From contig JARGFV010000005.1 of assembly GCA_029210545.1 (NCBI GenBank), forward strand, positions 1-47,922: a DNA stretch of 47,922 bases, given 5' to 3'. The stretch's first letter is position 1; each line of letters begins with the position of its first letter. The notes below the pieces were generated by a model that worked only from the letters and a program-made list of their open reading frames with translations, searched no databases and was not told where the DNA came from. The DNA is from a bacterium. GTDB lineage: Bacteria > BMS3Abin14. Position numbers and translations under genes: made by a program. Positions 1 through 47,922 of the stretch are shown piece by piece.

Positions 1-17
1 CAATGACTTACGGTGCG

Positions 18-78
18 GGTCATTGATTTGGGCGCCCCGCGCGGGGCGCGTTGATGACTTTTTGCGAAGTCATCAACA
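18..78 (+). repeat. Composite hairpin repeat, copy R1 (module C only)
   Basis: A GC palindrome (GCGCCCCGCGCGGGGCGC) is followed by the hairpin GATGACTT-TTTGCG-AAGTCATC at 53-74. The same module closes the larger copies near 17.8, 31.1, 32.6 and 47.8 kb. The bases just before it, CAATGAC and GGTCATTG, also pair with each other. This copy is truncated to the last module, or continues beyond the left edge. Confidence 0.8.
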
Positions 79-11340: not shown

Positions 11341-11491
11341 CAAAGAGGGCAGACCCGAAATCCGAGATTGGTTTTATCTTGCCTCCGGTCGGGGTGTCCG
11401 ATGGGGATTTTTTGCGAGTCCATCAACCTTCATGGTTGTCACTGCGAGCCGAAACCCGGGCGTGGCAGTCTAAGGCCTCCACCTGCGTCAG

Positions 11492-12292: not shown

Positions 12293-12838
12293 GGAAAACC
12301 TCCGGTTTTCAGTTTCAGGGTCCAGGTTCCACGTTCCAAGAGTACGTCTTGAACCGCTGCTTCAAATTTACGGTTTTTTTCGGTTCATCACAACAATGCG
12401 TACCTGAGTGGTGTCACCTCAAAGCCCGGAAAAGCATCCACCACAGAGGTCACAGAGGGTCACAGAGGAAACCAGTAATCCTTCCCTTCCTCTCACCTGA
12501 CCTCCCCCGTCAGGGGGAGGGATTTCTCCGAAATCGGCAGATGGGGCCTTCAAGGCCAGGATCAAAGCTTGCTTTCATCCCGGCCTTGAAGGCCCAGCCG
12601 TTCAGGTGAGAGAAAGATGATCGCCATGCTTTCTGCCGTAACAGCCCTGGCCTTTCTCTGTGTAACTCTGCCCTTCGACGCACTTATCACGCCGTTGGCG
12701 TGACTCAGGGTCCCGAGCCTGTCGAGGGATGGGACGGGCAGCCTACCAGCGGGCCGCCTCCGTGTCCTGGTGTGTCAAGGCTTTGAAGCTCCTGGCACAC
12801 TCAACGTTTCAGGGCACCAGGAACGCATTTTCATAAGG
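12293..12838. other. Gene-free, repeat-filled spacer, 546 bp
   Basis: The spacer holds a 65-bp dispersed repeat (12379-12443), CACAGAGGTCACAGAGGGTC microrepeats (12439-12470), an inverted CTCCCCCGTCAGGGGGAG word near 12500, a pair of 'CAAGGCC'-centred words near 12550-12595, and CCGAGCCTGTCGAGGG near 12713. No coding signal was found. Confidence 0.65.
12379..12443 (+). repeat. Dispersed repeat D, copy 1
   Basis: GGTTCATCACAACAATGCGT, then an ACCT-AG-GGTGTCACCTCAAAGCCC core, ending in a CCACCAC word. It matches 18720-18783 with only a handful of changes. Function unknown. Confidence 0.75.
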
Positions 12839-16203: not shown

Positions 16204-17442
16204 TCAGCTTTCATCTGCGTCCGGGATGCGCTCCTTGATGTTGTGTATGACGTCGATGCTGAAAAAGAATGCGTCCATCATTTCCGGATCGAAGTGGGTC
16301 CCCGTCTCACTCCTCATGGTCTCAAGGATGCGGTCCTCGTCCCAGGCGTCCTTGTAAGCCCTGGATGAGGAGAGCGCGTCGTAGACGTCGGCGATGGCCA
16401 CGATGCGTCCGAAGGCAGGAATTTCGTCGGCTTTTCGACCTCGTGCCCTGCCCGAGGGGCCTTCGAACCCCAGGATCGCCTTTCCCGTTCCCGGGTCAAT
16501 GAACCCCGGGTAACCGCTGCCGTCCCAGCGTTCGTGGTGGTTTAAGGCGATCATTGCCGAAGCTTCGTCGTATTCGGAGAACGTGTCGGCGAAGAGTTTC
16601 GCTCCGAGCCACGTGTGCTGCTTCATGAGGTCGAACTCATGATCGTTGAGTTTGTCCGGTTTTTTCAGGATGATGTCAGGGATGGCCACCTTGCCCACGT
16701 CGTGGAGCATGGAGGCGATCTTGAGGATGTCCTTGTCGCGGTCGATCTCCCGTTCCGGAATACTCCGCCGCATCGCCCAGACCTCGTAGATGGCCACCGA
16801 GTATGAAGCAACCCGCTGGACATGGGAACCCGTCTCCTTCGGGTCGCGCAGCCGCGCCATCTCGATGGTCCTCAGGATCATGGAGCGCGTCATGTTCGCC
16901 CGTTCGATGGCGTTGGCTGCGATACTGGCAAAATGCAGGACCATGGGTTCCAAAGATTTCAGGAAGCTGACGATTTCACCCTTTTTATTCTTCGCGTTGA
17001 TGAGCTGGAGGACACCGATGACGTCGTTACGCCTGGTTTTGAGGGGGATGGTGAGGATCGACTGGGTCTTGTATCTGGACATTTTGTCGAAATCCCGGCT
17101 GAAAGAGTATGGAGCGTCTTCGGGGATCTCGTAAGCGTCGGGTATGTTCAGGATCTCACCGTTGGTAGCAGCATAGCCGGCGATGGAGCGTGTGTTGATC
17201 GGGACTGTAAAGCTGGAGTAGATGAGTTTCTTGCCGGTGGGGAGGGCCTTTTGAAGAGTGTCGTTCTGGGTGTAGGTGAACTCGAGCTTGTCGCCGGACC
17301 TGGTATAGATCGATCCCGCGTCGGCGCTGACGAATTTACGTGCCTCGGTGAGGATCCTGTCGAGGAGAAGATCGAGATCCTTGACCTGGTTCAGTTCGAG
17401 ACCGAGGTCGATGATACTGGTGAGTTTATCCTGGGTTATCAT
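16204..17442 (-). CDS. GAF-HD-GYP domain protein (probable cyclic-di-GMP phosphodiesterase)
   Basis: The 412-residue cytoplasmic protein has an N-terminal GAF domain (about 8-165, with ADAGSIY and GVLQLINAKNKKG) and a C-terminal HD-GYP domain (about 190-400). The metal site includes HDVGK at about 246, HHERWDGSGYP (the GYP motif as GSGYP) and DVYDAL. HD-GYP proteins degrade cyclic-di-GMP, often under control of the attached sensor domain. The start MITQDK is chosen over an upstream in-frame codon because GGGGG lies 7 nt before it. It is a monocistronic unit flanked by gene remnants and repeat R3. Confidence 0.9.
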   Translation of the reverse strand: MITQDKLTSIIDLGLELNQVKDLDLLLDRILTEARKFVSADAGSIYTRSGDKLEFTYTQNDTLQKALPTGKKLIYSSFTVPINTRSIAGYAATNGEILNIPDAYEIPEDAPYSFSRDFDKMSRYKTQSILTIPLKTRRNDVIGVLQLINAKNKKGEIVSFLKSLEPMVLHFASIAANAIERANMTRSMILRTIEMARLRDPKETGSHVQRVASYSVAIYEVWAMRRSIPEREIDRDKDILKIASMLHDVGKVAIPDIILKKPDKLNDHEFDLMKQHTWLGAKLFADTFSEYDEASAMIALNHHERWDGSGYPGFIDPGTGKAILGFEGPSGRARGRKADEIPAFGRIVAIADVYDALSSSRAYKDAWDEDRILETMRSETGTHFDPEMMDAFFFSIDVIHNIKERIPDADES

Positions 17443-17508
17443 GGGAAAACCCCCTTGCAGCGCGTCGGAAAACATTGACGCGCTGCCTGAAACACCTTGA
17501 AACTTGAC

Positions 17509-17820
17509 AGGGTCGCAAAAGTCCGTGCGGGCCTTTTGCTTAACGGGAACCGAAAAGCGTGGTTTTCGGTTCCCTCACGGGGGCTACTGGCATATCGCAA
17601 AAGTCCGTGCGGGCCTTTTGCTTAACGGGAACCGAAAAGCGTGGTTTCCGGTTCCCTCACGGATCAGTGACATGTATTTCAGTCACTGATCCGGGCGCCG
17701 CTCCCAGGCGCGGCAGTTTTCACGGGTCATCGATCCGGGCGCCCTTCCCAGGCGCGGCGGGTCATTGATTTGGGCGCCCCGCGCGGGGCGCGTTGATGAC
17801 TTTTTGCGAAGTCATCATCT
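17509..17820 (+). repeat. Composite hairpin repeat, copy R3 (A-A-B-B-C), the most complete
   Basis: Two module A copies start at 17514 and 17595; the first has a perfect 12-bp stem GGGAACCGAAAA/TTTTCGGTTCCC at 17545-17556 and 17563-17574. Two B units follow (GATCCGGGCGCC then CCCAGGCGCGGC, each preceded by an inverted GTCAY word). Module C (17757-17816) ends with hairpin GATGACTT/AAGTCATC. The element fills most of the 430-bp gap between the HD-GYP and HAD genes; nothing else was recognised in the gap. Confidence 0.88.
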
Positions 17821-17872
17821 TTAATTGCCACACAGTTAGCTGACATCTCATTTGCATCATGAATAATGCGGG

Positions 17873-18511: not shown

Positions 18512-18719
18512 AAAAAAGTTCCTTTTCGAATTTTGCGTTGTGGGTATTGTGTATGCATGTTCATAGCCCTTGGCACTTAGAGCTTAGCTCTTTTACCCGA
18601 CTATGCCTTCCTCCTGAAACTTTGTACAGATGCCAGACCCAAAGCCAACCAAAACCTGATTCACCGCGAAGTACGCCAAGTTTCGCAAAGCAGGTCATGA
18701 AAAGAGCCATTATTTTTTT

Positions 18720-18783
18720 GGTTCATCACACTAATGCGTACCTTAGAGGTGTCACCTCAAAGCCCGTGAAAGCATTCACCACG
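18720..18783 (+). repeat. Dispersed repeat D, copy 2
   Basis: GGTTCATCACACTAATGCGT followed by ACCT-AG-GGTGTCACCTCAAAGCCC, matching 12379-12443. Same orientation as copy 1. Confidence 0.75.
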
Positions 18784-18835
18784 GCTTGTCCCGCAATCTT
18801 GTCATCGCGAGCCCAAATATAGTCAATTTCCATAT

Positions 18836-18881
18836 TCTTCCTCCCCCTGTTGAGGGGGGAGGACCGAGGTGGGGGTGAAAG
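18836..18881 (+). repeat. Dispersed repeat S, short copy
   Basis: TTCCTCCCCCTGTTGAGGGG plus GAGGACCGAGGTGGGGGTGA. It resembles 581-652 with the middle 25 or so bases missing. Confidence 0.65.
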
Positions 18882-23300: not shown

Positions 23301-23328
23301 TATATATCCCGATGGGGGAGGGTGTCAA
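23301..23328 (-). promoter_or_regulatory. Sigma70-type promoter of tRNA-Val
   Basis: Leftward TTGACA (23323-23328), a 16-nt spacer, TATATA (23301-23306). The predicted start is about 13 nt before the tRNA 5' end. Confidence 0.8.
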
Positions 23329-23333
23329 GGTTT

Positions 23334-23420
23334 GGAGTTTACTGTTTACAGTTCACGGTTTACAGTGCAACCGCTGCTATTGCTCAAAGGTTTGGCATGC
23401 CTTTACTGTGAACAGTCAAC
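23334..23420. repeat. CTGTAAACCGTGAAC microrepeats near tRNA-Val
   Basis: GTTTACTGTTTACAGTTCAC and GGTTTACAGT on the left, and TTTACTGTGAACAGTCAAC (23402-23420) on the right, form an imperfect inverted pair. Confidence 0.6.
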
Positions 23421-28603: not shown

Positions 28604-28730
28604 TTGAACTTTTCGGTGGTCATCAGGATGTCGGGGGTTGTCGGCCCTGCCGACGCTTTCCTCAAAGACCGATCAACTGATGATAGGGTCGCAAAAAAGC
28701 CAATATTAATCGAAAAAACAGGAGGTTCCC

Positions 28731-29738
28731 ATGGCCATTAAAGTGGCGATCAACGGATTCGGCCGCATCGGCAGGCTGACCGTCCGCAGTGCGATGAACG
28801 ACCGGGCTATCGAGTTCGTGGCCATCAATGATCTGACTGACGCAAAAACCCTCGACTGGCTCTTCGGTCACGATTCCGTGCACGGTTGCCTTCCCGGGGG
28901 CACCTCGGAAGTCTCGGGCGATTCCATCGTCATCAACGGCAAGCCGGTCAAGGTGTTTTCCGAGAAGGACCCGTCCAACCTGCCATGGAAAGAACTGGGT
29001 GTGGATGTTGTCCTCGAATGCACCGGCCTGTTCCGGGGCCGGGACACGGCAGGCAAACACCTTGATGCGGGAGCCTCCCACGTGATCATCTCCGCGCCCG
29101 GCAAGAATCCGGACATTACAGTGGTCATGGGGGTCAACCACCAGGATCTGGATCCCGGCAAGCACCGGATCATTTCCAACGCTTCGTGCACGACAAACTG
29201 CCTGGCTCCCGTAGCCAAGGTCCTGGATGATGAGTTCGGGATCGTTCACGGCGTCATGACAACGGTCCACGCCTACACCAACGACCAGCGAATACTGGAC
29301 CTGCCTCACAGCGACCTGCGCCGTGCCCGTGCTGCCGCCGTATCCATGATCCCGACCACCACCGGCGCCGCCTCGGCGGTGGGTGAAGTGCTTCCCCAGC
29401 TCAAGGGCAAGCTGGACGGCCTCGCCGTCCGGGTCCCCACCCCAAATGTGTCCCTGGTGGACCTTTCGGTGGAGCTTGAAAAGGAGACCGACGCCGATTC
29501 GGTTAACGCCGCCATGAAAAGGGCCGCCGAGACCGACCCCCTTGCGGGATATCTGGTTTACATGGACGAGCCCCTCGTTTCCGTGGATTTCAACGGTTGG
29601 GAGGCTTCATCCATATTCGACGCTCCCATGACCAAAGTGGTGGACGGAACCATGGCCAAGGTGCTCTCCTGGTACGATAACGAATACGGTTACTCGTCCC
29701 GCCTGAGGGACCTGGCCAAGTACCTTTACGGAGTCTGA
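28731..29738 (+). CDS. gap: Type I glyceraldehyde-3-phosphate dehydrogenase
   Basis: This cytoplasmic tetramer oxidises glyceraldehyde 3-phosphate to 1,3-bisphosphoglycerate with NAD. The 335-residue product has the Rossmann start INGFGRIGRL, the catalytic SNASCTTNC with Cys153, the HAYTNDQ histidine region, and the C-terminal SWYDNEYGYS. AGGAGG lies 5 nt before the ATG. It is followed 1 nt later by pgk; the gap-pgk-tpiA-secG order matches many deltaproteobacteria. Confidence 0.98.
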   Translation: MAIKVAINGFGRIGRLTVRSAMNDRAIEFVAINDLTDAKTLDWLFGHDSVHGCLPGGTSEVSGDSIVINGKPVKVFSEKDPSNLPWKELGVDVVLECTGLFRGRDTAGKHLDAGASHVIISAPGKNPDITVVMGVNHQDLDPGKHRIISNASCTTNCLAPVAKVLDDEFGIVHGVMTTVHAYTNDQRILDLPHSDLRRARAAAVSMIPTTTGAASAVGEVLPQLKGKLDGLAVRVPTPNVSLVDLSVELEKETDADSVNAAMKRAAETDPLAGYLVYMDEPLVSVDFNGWEASSIFDAPMTKVVDGTMAKVLSWYDNEYGYSSRLRDLAKYLYGV

Positions 29739-29739
29739 C

Positions 29740-30930
29740 GTGCTGAGGAAGAAAAAGCTCGAAGATGTGGATCTGAAAGGGAAAAAGGCCCTTATCCGTG
29801 TCGATTACAACGTGCCCCTTGATGCCAACGGCAACATCACTGACGACAGCCGGATCCGGGCGACCCTGCCCACCATAAACCATGTTCTGGATCAGGGCGG
29901 CAGCGTCATCCTCATGAGCCACCTGGGCCGCCCCAAGGGGAAACGTGTCCCTTCCATGAGCCTCGATCCCGTGGCGAGGCGCCTGGCCCGTCTTTTAAAA
30001 CAGGACGTGACCCTCCTCCCCGATTGCGTGGGGGCGGAGGTGGCCCGGGCAGCCCGGGAGCTTCAGCCCGGGGGGGTCCTCCTGCTGGAGAACCTCCGGT
30101 TCCATCCCGAGGAGAGGGCTAACGACCCCGGGTTTTCCCGGCAGTTGGCCGAACTCGCCGATGTCTACGTCGACGACGCTTTCGCCACCGCTCACCGGGA
30201 GCACGCCTCCGTTGTCGGTGTCCCTGCCTTTTTAAAGCCGGCTGTCGCCGGGTTCCTGGTCAACCACGAGATCGACTACTTCAACAGGGCACTCGGGGAG
30301 CCGGTTCGCCCCCTGGTGGCGATCCTCGGCGGCGCCAAGGTTTCCGACAAGATCCGGACTATCATGAGCCTCATGAAAAAAGTGGACAAGATCATTATCG
30401 GCGGCGGGATGGCGTTCACCTTTCTCAAATACATGGGGTACAAGGTTGGGCGGTCCCTGGTGGAGGAGGATATGCTCGACCTGGCCGGCGAGATCATTAC
30501 CGAGGCCAGGAAGAAAGGCATCCCGGTCTACTTCCCGGTGGATTGTGTCGCGGCCACCGCGGTGGACGAGAAGGCAGAATCGATGATCGTTCCTGCCCAG
30601 GAGATCTCTGACGACCTCATGGGCCTCGACATCGGGCCCGCCACCATCACCCTTTTCAGGGAGGTGATCGGGTCGGCCGGAACCATTATCTGGAACGGGC
30701 CCATGGGAGTTTTTGAACTCTCATCTTTCAGCAAGGGGACCTTCTCCATGGTGGAGGCCCTGGCCGGATCTCAGGCCCTGACCATTCTCGGCGGTGGTGA
30801 TACCGATGTCGCAGTCCACGCCACGGGAAATTCGGACAAGATCGATTATATATCCACCGGTGGCGGGGCGTTCCTCATGCTGCTGGAAAAGGGGGAACTC
30901 CCGGGCATTAACGCCCTGGATGACTTATGA
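29740..30930 (+). CDS. pgk: Phosphoglycerate kinase
   Basis: It transfers phosphate between 1,3-bisphosphoglycerate and ADP in glycolysis/gluconeogenesis. The 396-residue, two-lobed protein shows RVDYNVPLD, SHLGRPKGKR, the EERANDPGFSRQLA and DAFATAHREHAS segments, GGAKVSDKI, WNGPMGVFE and the nucleotide-binding GGGDTDVA. The start is GTG 1 nt after the gap stop, implying coupled translation. Length normal. Downstream lies a 523-bp gap with repeat R4. Confidence 0.98.
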   Translation: MLRKKKLEDVDLKGKKALIRVDYNVPLDANGNITDDSRIRATLPTINHVLDQGGSVILMSHLGRPKGKRVPSMSLDPVARRLARLLKQDVTLLPDCVGAEVARAARELQPGGVLLLENLRFHPEERANDPGFSRQLAELADVYVDDAFATAHREHASVVGVPAFLKPAVAGFLVNHEIDYFNRALGEPVRPLVAILGGAKVSDKIRTIMSLMKKVDKIIIGGGMAFTFLKYMGYKVGRSLVEEDMLDLAGEIITEARKKGIPVYFPVDCVAATAVDEKAESMIVPAQEISDDLMGLDIGPATITLFREVIGSAGTIIWNGPMGVFELSSFSKGTFSMVEALAGSQALTILGGGDTDVAVHATGNSDKIDYISTGGGAFLMLLEKGELPGINALDDL

Positions 30931-30945
30931 TAGTCCGCCTCGATA

Positions 30946-31124
30946 TTGATAGAGTCGCAAAAAGTCCAATCCGGGACTTTTCGCTCCACGGAAAGGGAAA
31001 AGCGTCGTTTTCCCTTTCCTCACAAATCAATGACTTATCCCGCAAATTAATGACTTGCGGGACGGGTCATTGATTTGGGCACCCCACGCGGGGTGCGTTG
31101 ATGGACTTTTTGCGAGTCCATCAA
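30946..31124 (+). repeat. Composite hairpin repeat, copy R4 (A-C)
   Basis: Module A has a perfect 12-bp stem GGAAAGGGAAAA/TTTTCCCTTTCC (30990-31001 with 31008-31019). It is followed by paired AATGACTTA words and a module C in which the palindrome has become GCACCCCACGCGGGGTGC and the last hairpin GATGGACT/AGTCCATC (31100-31122). Both changes keep the pairing. Confidence 0.88.
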
Positions 31125-31128
31125 TATT

Positions 31129-31201
31129 CTTCCTCCCCCTTGAGGGGGGAGGATCCGCCGTCGCTCAAGCTATGGCGGGACAAGTCAGAGGTGGGGGTGA
31201 A
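31129..31201 (+). repeat. Dispersed repeat S, copy 2
   Basis: It is nearly identical to 581-652 over about 70 bp, including GCCGTCGCTCAAGCTATGGC. It is attached directly to the end of R4. Confidence 0.85.
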
Positions 31202-31401
31202 TCTATTCCCCCTCTCCCCGACACTCTCCTCCTTCGGCAAGCTCAGGACGGTGAGCCTGTCGAACCAGAGGGAAAGTGAGGAGAGGAACGATTATATAAG
31301 CACCGCCCCGGAAAATTAGCACCGCCCCGTAAAACGGATCGAAGAGAATATTTTTCCGGGTAGTTATTACCCACAGGGCAGAAAAAGCCTCCTGTCGGCA
31401 T

Positions 31402-31430
31402 TTGACATGTGATCGGCCAGGTGGTATAGC
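31402..31430 (+). promoter_or_regulatory. Sigma70-type promoter of tpiA
   Basis: TTGACA (31402-31407), 17-nt spacer, TATAGC (31425-31430). The predicted start is near 31437, about 17 nt before the ATG, so tpiA can be expressed separately from gap-pgk. Confidence 0.75.
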
Positions 31431-31453
31431 CCGCCTGCTCTGGAGAAGATACC

Positions 31454-32221
31454 ATGGCGAGAAAACCGCTCATCGTAGCAAACTGGAAGATGAACAAGAC
31501 GATCTCCGAATCTGTGGACTTCGTCGAGGAGTTTCTGCCCCTCGTGTCCGGTGTTGAAGATGTGGACGTAGCCATCGCTCCACCCGCCACGGCCCTGGCC
31601 GCTTTAGGAAAGGCCCTGAGCAGGAGTTGGGTGGCCCTGGCAGCCCAGAACATGCATTGGGAAGGTTCAGGGGCGTTTACCGGTGAGATCAGCCCCGTCA
31701 TGCTTCGGGACATCGGCTGCCGGATGGTCATCGTCGGCCATTCGGAACGGCGTCAGTTCTTCGGAGAGGGGGACGGCGAAGTGGCCCGCAAGATCGCGGC
31801 TGCCATGAGAGAGGGAATAACCCCGATCCTCTGTGTAGGGGAGACCCTCGGGGAGCGGGAGTACGGCAAGACCTTCGATGTGGTGGAAAGGCAGCTTCTC
31901 GGTGCTCTGGACGGGACCGTGGTCGAGGGCGGGGCAGATCTGGTGGTCGCCTATGAGCCGGTTTGGGCCATCGGCACCGGCAAGACGGCAACCCAGGGAG
32001 AGGCCCAGGAGGTCCACGGTTTCATCAGGGGGCTTATGGCCGGTCTTGTGGGAAAAGAGGTGTCGGACCAGATCCGTGTCCTTTACGGCGGCTCGGTCAA
32101 ACCCGACAATACCTCATCCCTGATCACCATGGAGGATATCGATGGCGCCCTTGTCGGCGGCGCCGGCCTGGATCCTGAGAGCTTCGCCGGGATCGTAAAG
32201 GCGGCGAAGGCGAGAGAATAA
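31454..32221 (+). CDS. tpiA: Triosephosphate isomerase
   Basis: It interconverts dihydroxyacetone phosphate and glyceraldehyde 3-phosphate. The 255-residue TIM barrel has the catalytic lysine in ANWKMNK, histidine in IVGHSERR, glutamate in VAYEPVWAIGTG, and the phosphate loop GGSVKPDN and VGGAGLD. GGAG precedes the ATG by 8 nt. It is flanked on both sides by directly oriented copies of the composite repeat (R4 and R5), with its own promoter inside the pair. Confidence 0.98.
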   Translation: MARKPLIVANWKMNKTISESVDFVEEFLPLVSGVEDVDVAIAPPATALAALGKALSRSWVALAAQNMHWEGSGAFTGEISPVMLRDIGCRMVIVGHSERRQFFGEGDGEVARKIAAAMREGITPILCVGETLGEREYGKTFDVVERQLLGALDGTVVEGGADLVVAYEPVWAIGTGKTATQGEAQEVHGFIRGLMAGLVGKEVSDQIRVLYGGSVKPDNTSSLITMEDIDGALVGGAGLDPESFAGIVKAAKARE

Positions 32222-32640
32222 AACGACACAAAGACGCGGTGACGCGGAAATGGGGAGAAACGGCGCCGGCAGGATCAGTAGCCCGTCATTACGAGCTGAT
32301 ATCGGGCGAAGCGATCCCGGTTTCCGAAATAGCGGTAGAAACTTATTCACAACTCCTGATAGAGTCGCAAAAAGTCCAATCCGGGACTTTTCGCTCCACG
32401 AAAAGGGAAAAGCGGGGTTTTTCCTTTCCTCACGGAGATTACTGATAGATCGCCAAAGTCTATGCGAGACTTTGGCTCAACGGAAAGGAAAAGGCGGGGT
32501 TTGTCCTTTCCTCACGGATCGCGACATATTTGCCGGTCATCGATCCGGGCGCCCCGCGCGGGGCGCATTGATGACTTTTTTCGAAGTCATCAACTTAGAA
32601 CGCAGAGTAAATCTGTCTTATTGGAGGCGATTGAAAAACG
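32222..32640. other. Repeat-filled spacer between tpiA and secG, 419 bp
   Basis: After a short ACACAAAGACGCGGTGACGC microrepeat, most of the gap is composite repeat R5. No promoter with good consensus was seen, so secG may be read through from tpiA. No ORF. Confidence 0.6.
32356..32597 (+). repeat. Composite hairpin repeat, copy R5 (A-A-B/C)
   Basis: The first module A is nearly identical to R4 for its first 45 bp. The second module A has stem 1 changed to a perfect GCCAAAGTCT/AGACTTTGGC (32452-32461 with 32467-32476). A GGTCATCGATCCGGGC word leads to the GC palindrome and hairpin GATGACTT/AAGTCATC (32570-32591). Confidence 0.87.
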
Positions 32641-33024
32641 ATGATGATACTTTTCCTGAAGATCCTTCACATAGCCGTGGCAGTTTTCCTTATCCTGGTC
32701 GTGTTGCTCCAGACGGGCAAGGGAGCCGAGATGGGTGCCGCTTTCGGCGGGTCGAGCCAGACCCTTTTCGGCGGCGCCGGGCCTGCCGGATTCATGGCCA
32801 AGTTAACCACGACAGCTGCCATCTGTTTCATGCTCACGTCCCTTGGACTGGCATACATGTCGTCCACCAGCAGCCGAAACATGGGAATCGAGGTACCGAC
32901 CACCCAGGCCCCTGTAACGTTACCCGGTGAGACCGGTGCGGGCCAGGTCCCTGAAGAGGCCGTCCCCGAGAGTTCGGCCCCGACATCAGCGACACCGGAA
33001 ACGGCCGGCACCGAAGGCCAGTAA
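32641..33024 (+). CDS. secG: Preprotein translocase subunit SecG
   Basis: SecG is the small auxiliary membrane subunit of the SecYEG channel. The 127-residue protein has two hydrophobic helices (about 3-22 and 52-74) joined by LLQTGKGAEMGAAFGGSSQT, the conserved cytoplasmic loop, and a Pro/Thr/Glu-rich C-terminal tail typical of deltaproteobacterial forms. GGAGG lies 13 nt before the first ATG of an ATGATG pair, rather far. A strong terminator follows the stop. Confidence 0.95.
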   Translation: MMILFLKILHIAVAVFLILVVLLQTGKGAEMGAAFGGSSQTLFGGAGPAGFMAKLTTTAAICFMLTSLGLAYMSSTSSRNMGIEVPTTQAPVTLPGETGAGQVPEEAVPESSAPTSATPETAGTEGQ

Positions 33025-36611: not shown

Positions 36612-36745
36612 TAGTGTACGGTCTACTGTTTACAGTCAGAGCCCGTGAAAAACGGCGGGACCCTGTCTCCTCGGATTCCCGCCGTTTCTTGTCTTTTCGT
36701 TTGTGAACTGTGAACCGTTTACCGTGAACTGTAAACGGTAACGCC
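36612..36745. repeat. Inverted pair of CTGTAAACCGTGAAC microrepeats around a terminator
   Basis: GTGTACGGTCTACTGTTTAC (36614-36633) faces GTGAACTGTGAACCGTTTAC and GTGAACTGTAAACGG (36704-36738), with the terminator hairpin of the zinc-ribbon gene in between. Confidence 0.65.
36650..36687 (-). terminator. Terminator after the small zinc-ribbon gene
   Basis: AAACGGCGGGA and TCCCGCCGTTT arms pair perfectly over 11 bp, with a T5 run on the leftward strand. Confidence 0.8.
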
Positions 36746-37344: not shown

Positions 37345-37423
37345 TCGGTATTCTCCTGGTAACCATGGTGTTTGATCCTAAAACGCTTATAAAGATTAAC
37401 GGGAAAGTCAATAAGGGGGAGAA

Positions 37424-37620
37424 GTCCACAGTTAACAGTTTGCGGTTTACAGTCAAATAAAAGCACAAAACTGAAAATCGTGGATTATTGTGTTGCGCCG
37501 TTTTCTATTTAGATAAATGCCCGGGTGTTCAGGGGATGGTAGATGATGTCGGAGGAGAAGTGTGTCAGCCTCGAACTGTAAGCTGTAAACTGTACACCGT
37601 AAACTGTACACCGTAAACTT
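37424..37620. repeat. CTGTAAACCGTGAAC-type microrepeats upstream of the Fur gene
   Basis: ACAGTTAACAGTTTGCGGTT (37428-37447) and, facing it, GAACTGTAAGCTGTAAACTG then ACACCGTAAACTGTACACCG (37572-37618). They lie between the Fur gene and the small membrane protein gene. Confidence 0.6.
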
Positions 37621-38079: not shown

Positions 38080-38130
38080 TGATGGACGCGCAAAAAGTCC
38101 CGGATTGGACTTTTTGCGACCCTATCAACT
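38080..38130 (+). repeat. Composite hairpin repeat, fragment R6
   Basis: GATGGACGCGCAAAAAGTCC leads into a perfect CGCAAAAAGTCC/GGACTTTTTGCG hairpin, then ACCCTATCAAC. It corresponds to the first stem of module A joined to a module C end. Confidence 0.75.
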
Positions 38131-47742: not shown

Positions 47743-47922
47743 ATTGATGGACTCGCAAAAAAGTCCATCAACGCGCCCCGCGCGGGGCGCCCAAATCAAT
47801 GACTCACCGCGCCTGGGAGAGGCGCCCGGATCGATGACCGGCAATAGCAGCCGCGCCCGGGGAGGGCGCCCGGATCGAGTGCCAATGGCTGTGTGTTCGA
47901 TCCGTGAGGGAACCGAAAACCA
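47743..47922 (-). repeat. Composite hairpin repeat, copy R7 (inverted, runs off the window)
   Basis: In reverse orientation it shows module C (hairpin GATGGACT/AGTCCATC at 47746-47769 and the GC palindrome), two B units, then the start of a module A whose arm is TTTTCGGTTCCC, as in R3. The order read on the minus strand is A-B-B-C, identical to R3. The remainder lies beyond the right edge. Confidence 0.85.

Follow-up and report, generated by a model that had tools for sequence, protein, structure and literature searches.

What kind of element is repeated along this 47,922-nt stretch of DNA (the window), and why do its hairpin stems keep pairing while their sequences change? A preliminary description had listed seven places as copies of one family, with modules in a fixed order (A, B, C), and offered three options: a structured RNA, a REP/BIME-like element or a MITE. 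Related sequence is present at all seven places, and the stem variants quoted there occur in the sequence, but two relics, each a lone terminal repeat, had been overlooked (Table 1). The A-B-C order describes a modular build and is not strict, since one internal fragment runs A-B-A'.

The window is a whole contig (C5) of the host assembly, a 2.72-Mb draft genome in 241 contigs, and its first and last bases fall inside repeat copies. Several further host contigs likewise start or finish within a copy, and MITE copies explain many of the breaks in these draft genomes. A BLAST search with positions 17500–17825 returned 53 similar places in the host genome. The copy at 17505–17817 is flanked by ACTT and TCTT, a decayed 4-bp duplication.

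Table 1. Copies and relics of the repeat family in the window
Position	Strand	Feature
1–75	+	Right part of a copy: hairpins 3–5 and right terminal repeat; truncated at contig start
2960–3187	+	Internal fragment, modules A-B-A', without terminal repeats
11404–11425	-	Relic: lone right terminal repeat
17505–17817	+	Long full copy: left terminal repeat, two A (82-bp period), two B, C, right terminal repeat
28681–28700	+	Relic: lone left terminal repeat, ~30 bp upstream of the ORF at 28731
30947–31123	+	Full copy between exact 4-bp ATAT duplications (30943–30946, 31124–31127)
32357–32592	+	Long full copy (A, A', B, C)
38080–38127		48-bp minimal form: both terminal repeats only, joined as one hairpin; ACTT on each side
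47745–47922	-	Reverse-oriented copy (C, B, B, beginning of A), truncated at contig end

The commonest full unit is 155–157 bp long, holds no transposase gene and carries at both ends the terminal inverted repeats of 16–20 bp (TGATRGASTCGCAAAAAGTC) that characterize a MITE. The 16-nt terminal motif has 286 matches in the host genome at 0–1 mismatch, compared with 0 for a reversed control. The left terminal repeat is followed by hairpins 1–4, and hairpin 5 is the right terminal repeat itself. Hairpin 1 takes its first arm from the inner portion of the left end (TGATRGRGTCGCAAAAAGTCC); hairpin 2 (GGAAAGNGAAAA...TTTTCNCTTTCC) has a small conserved loop, and hairpins 3 and 4 are CAAATCAATGACTT...AAGTCATTGATTTG and GCGCCCC...GGGGCGC, respectively. 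In hairpin 5, the outer 8 nt of the right end pair with the bases just inside them, at least seven of the eight doing so in 108 of 128 copies; applied to the left end, the same test is passed by 1 copy of 128. One host copy (L109:878-1034, G000:C150) bears left-end sequence at its right end, which breaks hairpin 5, and has a Y1 transposase gene 0.8 kb away.

In long copies (such as 17505–17817 and L077, from the same genome), the stretch separating the first hairpin pair from hairpin 5 holds additional hairpin-pair modules, repeated in tandem with an 82-bp period; such copies are tandem expansions of these modules. Five sense-strand copies were folded as single-stranded DNA, and four kept the hairpin chain, including one from Desulfurivibrio and one zetaproteobacterial copy; the remaining one, from genome G002, paired its two ends together instead, as did the minus strand of the host copy. 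Folding z-scores ranged from -7 to -12. Elsewhere in the host genome (L064:416-521, G000:C8), next to a full MITE, there is a short element that resembles the family at its ends (TGACAGGGTCGTAAAAAGTC ... GCGAGTCCATCA) but has a different interior; it is possibly a second non-autonomous family with the same ends.

BLAST with a 157-bp unit found matches in 11 of 61 genomes, namely the host and 10 of the 11 other members of its family, and none in the 49 genomes of other families. The covariance-model search that the preliminary description had proposed (model R1), with at most 150 candidates scored per genome, recovered at least 153 copies in the host genome; ten other genomes of the family gave 150, 145, 140, 127, 112, 79, 73, 44, 29 and 15, the highest of these counts being possibly too low, and one member of the same family (G001) had 0. 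Across 84,980 species genomes, the hairpin-1 pattern occurred in 29 stretches from few organisms: host-family members, Desulfurivibrio sp. AMeS2, and Zetaproteobacteria including a Mariprofundaceae genome. The complete five-hairpin unit with a 4-bp duplication is present in Desulfurivibrio and in three zetaproteobacterial genomes; in the NCBI taxonomy, Desulfurivibrio belongs to Thermodesulfobacteriota and Mariprofundaceae to Pseudomonadota. A search for carriage on plasmids, phages or viral contigs gave no match.

We quantified conservation of the fold in 43 diverse copies from 15 genomes, comparing 45 pairs with shuffles. Cells were paired in 91.4% of cases (87.7 ± 0.3% in shuffles), both partners had changed in 19 of the 45 pairs (9.8 ± 1.5), and covariation scored 0.155 (0.094 ± 0.004); shifting the partner columns by 1–3 lowered pairing to 36–55%. 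Covariation is spread over all four internal hairpins, and the fifth retains pairing despite length changes. The covarying stems described from the window are thus borne out on a broader set, and conservation of the folded structure across copies is real.

The elements could be MITEs whose stems covary as a by-product of quasipalindrome correction, in which the template switches from one palindrome arm to the other, and not because structure is selected; we regard this account as possible but do not favor it. GT and AC mismatches are equally common in 128 copies (182 versus 212), as it predicts if selection is not strand-specific, and the tandem modules imply frequent local rearrangement. However, 6 of 15 lineage consensuses retain C-A mismatches at pairs 50/67 and 85/103, which shows that the arms are not quickly homogenized; the five-hairpin layout is preserved across separate phyla, and the hairpin-2 loop and its flanking spacers are conserved too. 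The mismatch parity itself points either to structure at the DNA level or to the lack of strand-specific selection, and part of the covariation could stem from arm-to-arm template switching.

Mobility was assessed from target duplications, with element boundaries taken as TGA...TCA. An exact 4-bp direct repeat flanks 38 of 80 full copies (5-bp in 7), compared with 2.9 on average and at most 9 at 4 bp when right flanks were shuffled. In a larger set, exact 4-bp duplications were found at 45 of 101 copies in the host family, 6 of 8 in Desulfurivibrio and 8 of 19 in Zetaproteobacteria. The target is the palindromic A[ANNT]T (consensus Y-A-[ANNT]-T-R), in line with the palindrome or stem-loop targeting of some IS1182-family members. 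Nearly all copies are intergenic, and overlaps with ORFs called by a crude finder are partial except for one 91-aa ORF.

A unit at G004:C2:53939-54093 is absent from the matching place in a sister species (G009:C10:121567-121661). This empty site reads CCACGTTGG-ACAT-TGGACGTTGG, with a single copy of the 4-bp target, and the filled site reads CCACGTTGG-GCTT-element-ACTT-TGGACGTTGG; the insertion is recent enough that the sister species retains the empty site. Assembly duplication of a single locus, against which the preliminary description had cautioned, is excluded by the differing flanks, the separate target duplications and this empty site. On the same G004 contig, another repeat family (L285:4804-5139 and 16685-16848) has many matches in G009, and one of its copies lies at a near-empty G009 site.

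The preliminary description had also advised looking for a mobilizing transposase, and an IS1182-like gene with matching ends is indeed present in the host genome, with truncated relatives in two genera. A DDE_Tnp_1 search of the family led to this 520-aa ORF (G000:C1, L209:1258-2820, minus strand). The element ends around it are TGACGGCATCGCAAAAAGTATC, which precedes the start codon by ~85 bp, and TGATGGACCCGCAATTAGTC on the downstream side. The best NCBIfam match of the protein is IS1182 (E 1.6e-33, 116 bits against a curated cut-off of 270), and Pfam DUF772 and DDE_Tnp_1 exceed cut-off. Related genes, truncated or at a contig end, have the matching upstream end TGACGGACTCGCAAAAAGT in G009 and the upstream end TGATGGCTTCGCAAAAAGT in G007, the latter identical over 19 nt to the right ends of local MITEs. 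Judging from these shared ends, the IS1182-like transposase is likely the partner of the MITE. The one complete IS copy found has flanks ACCT and ATAT, with no duplication. A MITE at L209:1067-1240 (G000:C1) sits 4 bp (ACCT) from the IS1182-like element and neither has a duplication of its own, as if one had inserted at, or recombined with, the other.

It is rather unlikely, though conceivable, that another DDE transposase mobilizes the family and that the IS1182-like IS simply has the same ends. Hundreds of copies reside in genomes without an IS match: most MITE-rich genomes, including those of Desulfurivibrio and Zetaproteobacteria, have no protein match to the 520-aa transposase, and no transposase lies between such terminal repeats in the 1.19 Mb of Desulfurivibrio sequence examined. 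Set against this, matching ends accompany a transposase gene in three genera, and the variant in G007 is that of the local MITEs. The host genome yielded no integrase-core (rve) transposases, and no such gene in the family was bounded by the ends. Where terminal repeats stood in pairs 1.6–3 kb apart in the host, they belonged to two separate MITEs with ordinary genes, such as ParA, between them.

Covariation, strong folding and largely intergenic positions would also suit a functional RNA, or a signal acting at the RNA level (terminator, mRNA stabilizer or small RNA), that spreads as repeats, but we consider this very improbable. A one-strand transcript fold is expected to tolerate G-U and not A-C, yet G-U is not in excess on either strand, and orientation relative to tandem gene pairs is random (16 same, 17 opposite); both observations disfavor a one-strand RNA. 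The elements have no Rfam match, and terminator-like sites in 30800–32700 are no more frequent than in shuffles. Of the earlier suggestion of selection on folded RNA or single-stranded DNA, conservation of a folded structure stands and a one-strand RNA is disfavored; single-stranded DNA or a cruciform would suit the strand symmetry better, although mismatch parity and random orientation alone fall short of proving selection on DNA structure. Mobilization as REP/REPIN elements by a RAYT (Y1 transposase) can practically be dismissed: Y1_Tnp genes occur in 8 of 12 family genomes, but the element-free G001 has them too, the examined Y1 loci lack flanking elements apart from the chance-like case of one MITE 0.8 kb away in G000:C150, and 4-bp duplications and inverted terminal repeats are foreign to REPINs.

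Among the three options first offered, the MITE is supported by the terminal repeats, target duplications, empty site and matching IS; the REP/BIME-RAYT option lacks support, and the one-strand RNA is disfavored. We conclude that the repeats are a new, unusually widespread family of non-autonomous DNA transposons (MITEs), whose chain units stand at 4-bp target duplications. We put at roughly 80% the probability of this overall reading, which includes, less surely, movement in trans by an IS1182-type enzyme and hairpins kept as DNA structure. The IS1182-type DDE transposase would bind the shared ends and cut and paste, or copy, the unit in trans, and modules would multiply via slippage or recombination between repeats. 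With less assurance, we infer that the hairpins are retained because an extruded or single-stranded DNA structure aids movement or tolerance, and not through folding of a transcript.

In bacterial MITE families, the interior usually drifts freely and the range is usually one genus or family. The present family is set apart by a five-hairpin chain kept by compensatory change across phyla and by its expandable hairpin-pair modules. Conservation of the whole interior by compensatory change between phyla suggests that it matters for the element itself. The hairpin chain may even be a working cis part whose DNA hairpins the IS1182-type enzyme needs to recognize or excise the element or to choose a target, and which compensatory change has for that reason kept across phyla; we infer such a role in transposition from the conserved hairpins and hold it as tentative. 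The IS1182-like element itself lacks the hairpin chain, so its transposase need not require hairpins. IS1182-type transposases are reported to act, as a group, on stem-loops, and the MITE gives them a natural non-autonomous substrate that would allow structure-dependent transposition to be tested directly.

We know of no matching terminal inverted repeats in bcr1 of the Bacillus cereus group. It resembles this MITE in being a mobile repeat of high copy number, reaching 130 per genome, and is tied to TTTAT repeats and to a single species group (PMC6542083). Correia, Nezha and other bacterial MITEs share terminal inverted repeats, target duplication, high copy number, folding and trans-mobilization by an IS with matching ends (PMC3049150); in contrast, the interior here is an ordered five-hairpin chain with compensatory change between phyla and expandable modules. 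BOX of Streptococcus pneumoniae, with short non-coding modular A-Bn-C repeats of 67–637 bp, tandem internal modules, strong folding and ends reported to resemble an IS (PMC3049150), is analogous in build, whereas this MITE has a clear 4-bp duplication, a covarying five-hairpin chain and a spread over unrelated phyla.

The IS1182 family is relevant through the putative partner transposase. Its member IS1272 reportedly targets stem-loops or inverted repeats and takes their place without target duplication, and some members target palindromes according to a review as cited there (PMC5678879); the present MITE differs from IS1272 in its 4-bp duplication at a palindromic site and in forming non-autonomous hairpin-chain derivatives. 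REPINs mobilized by RAYT (PMC3116915) are likewise intergenic, high-copy paired hairpins, but this MITE has target duplications and no RAYT link. Thiomargarita MITEs (5-bp TATAG or 10-bp duplications, PMC4853749) and the triplex repeats of PMC4666352 were set aside as different. In the open-licence literature, we found no description of this element or of any MITE tied to IS1182.

The window also holds repeats of other kinds. A second family of 84 nt (CCTCCCCCTTGAGGGGGGAGGATCC...GGTGGGGGTGAA) occurs at 569–652 and 31118–31201 with 95% identity, the latter copy beginning at the right edge of the MITE at 30947–31123, and has a shorter relative at 18828–18881. Degenerate short repeats of the GTTTACAGT/ACTGTAAAC type lie in both orientations at 1754–1840, 23322–23380, 36613–36741 and 37423–37611, and a 70-nt repeat is 89% identical between 12375–12444 and 18713–18782. 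A TPP riboswitch aptamer scores above the Rfam gathering threshold at 190–286 on the minus strand.
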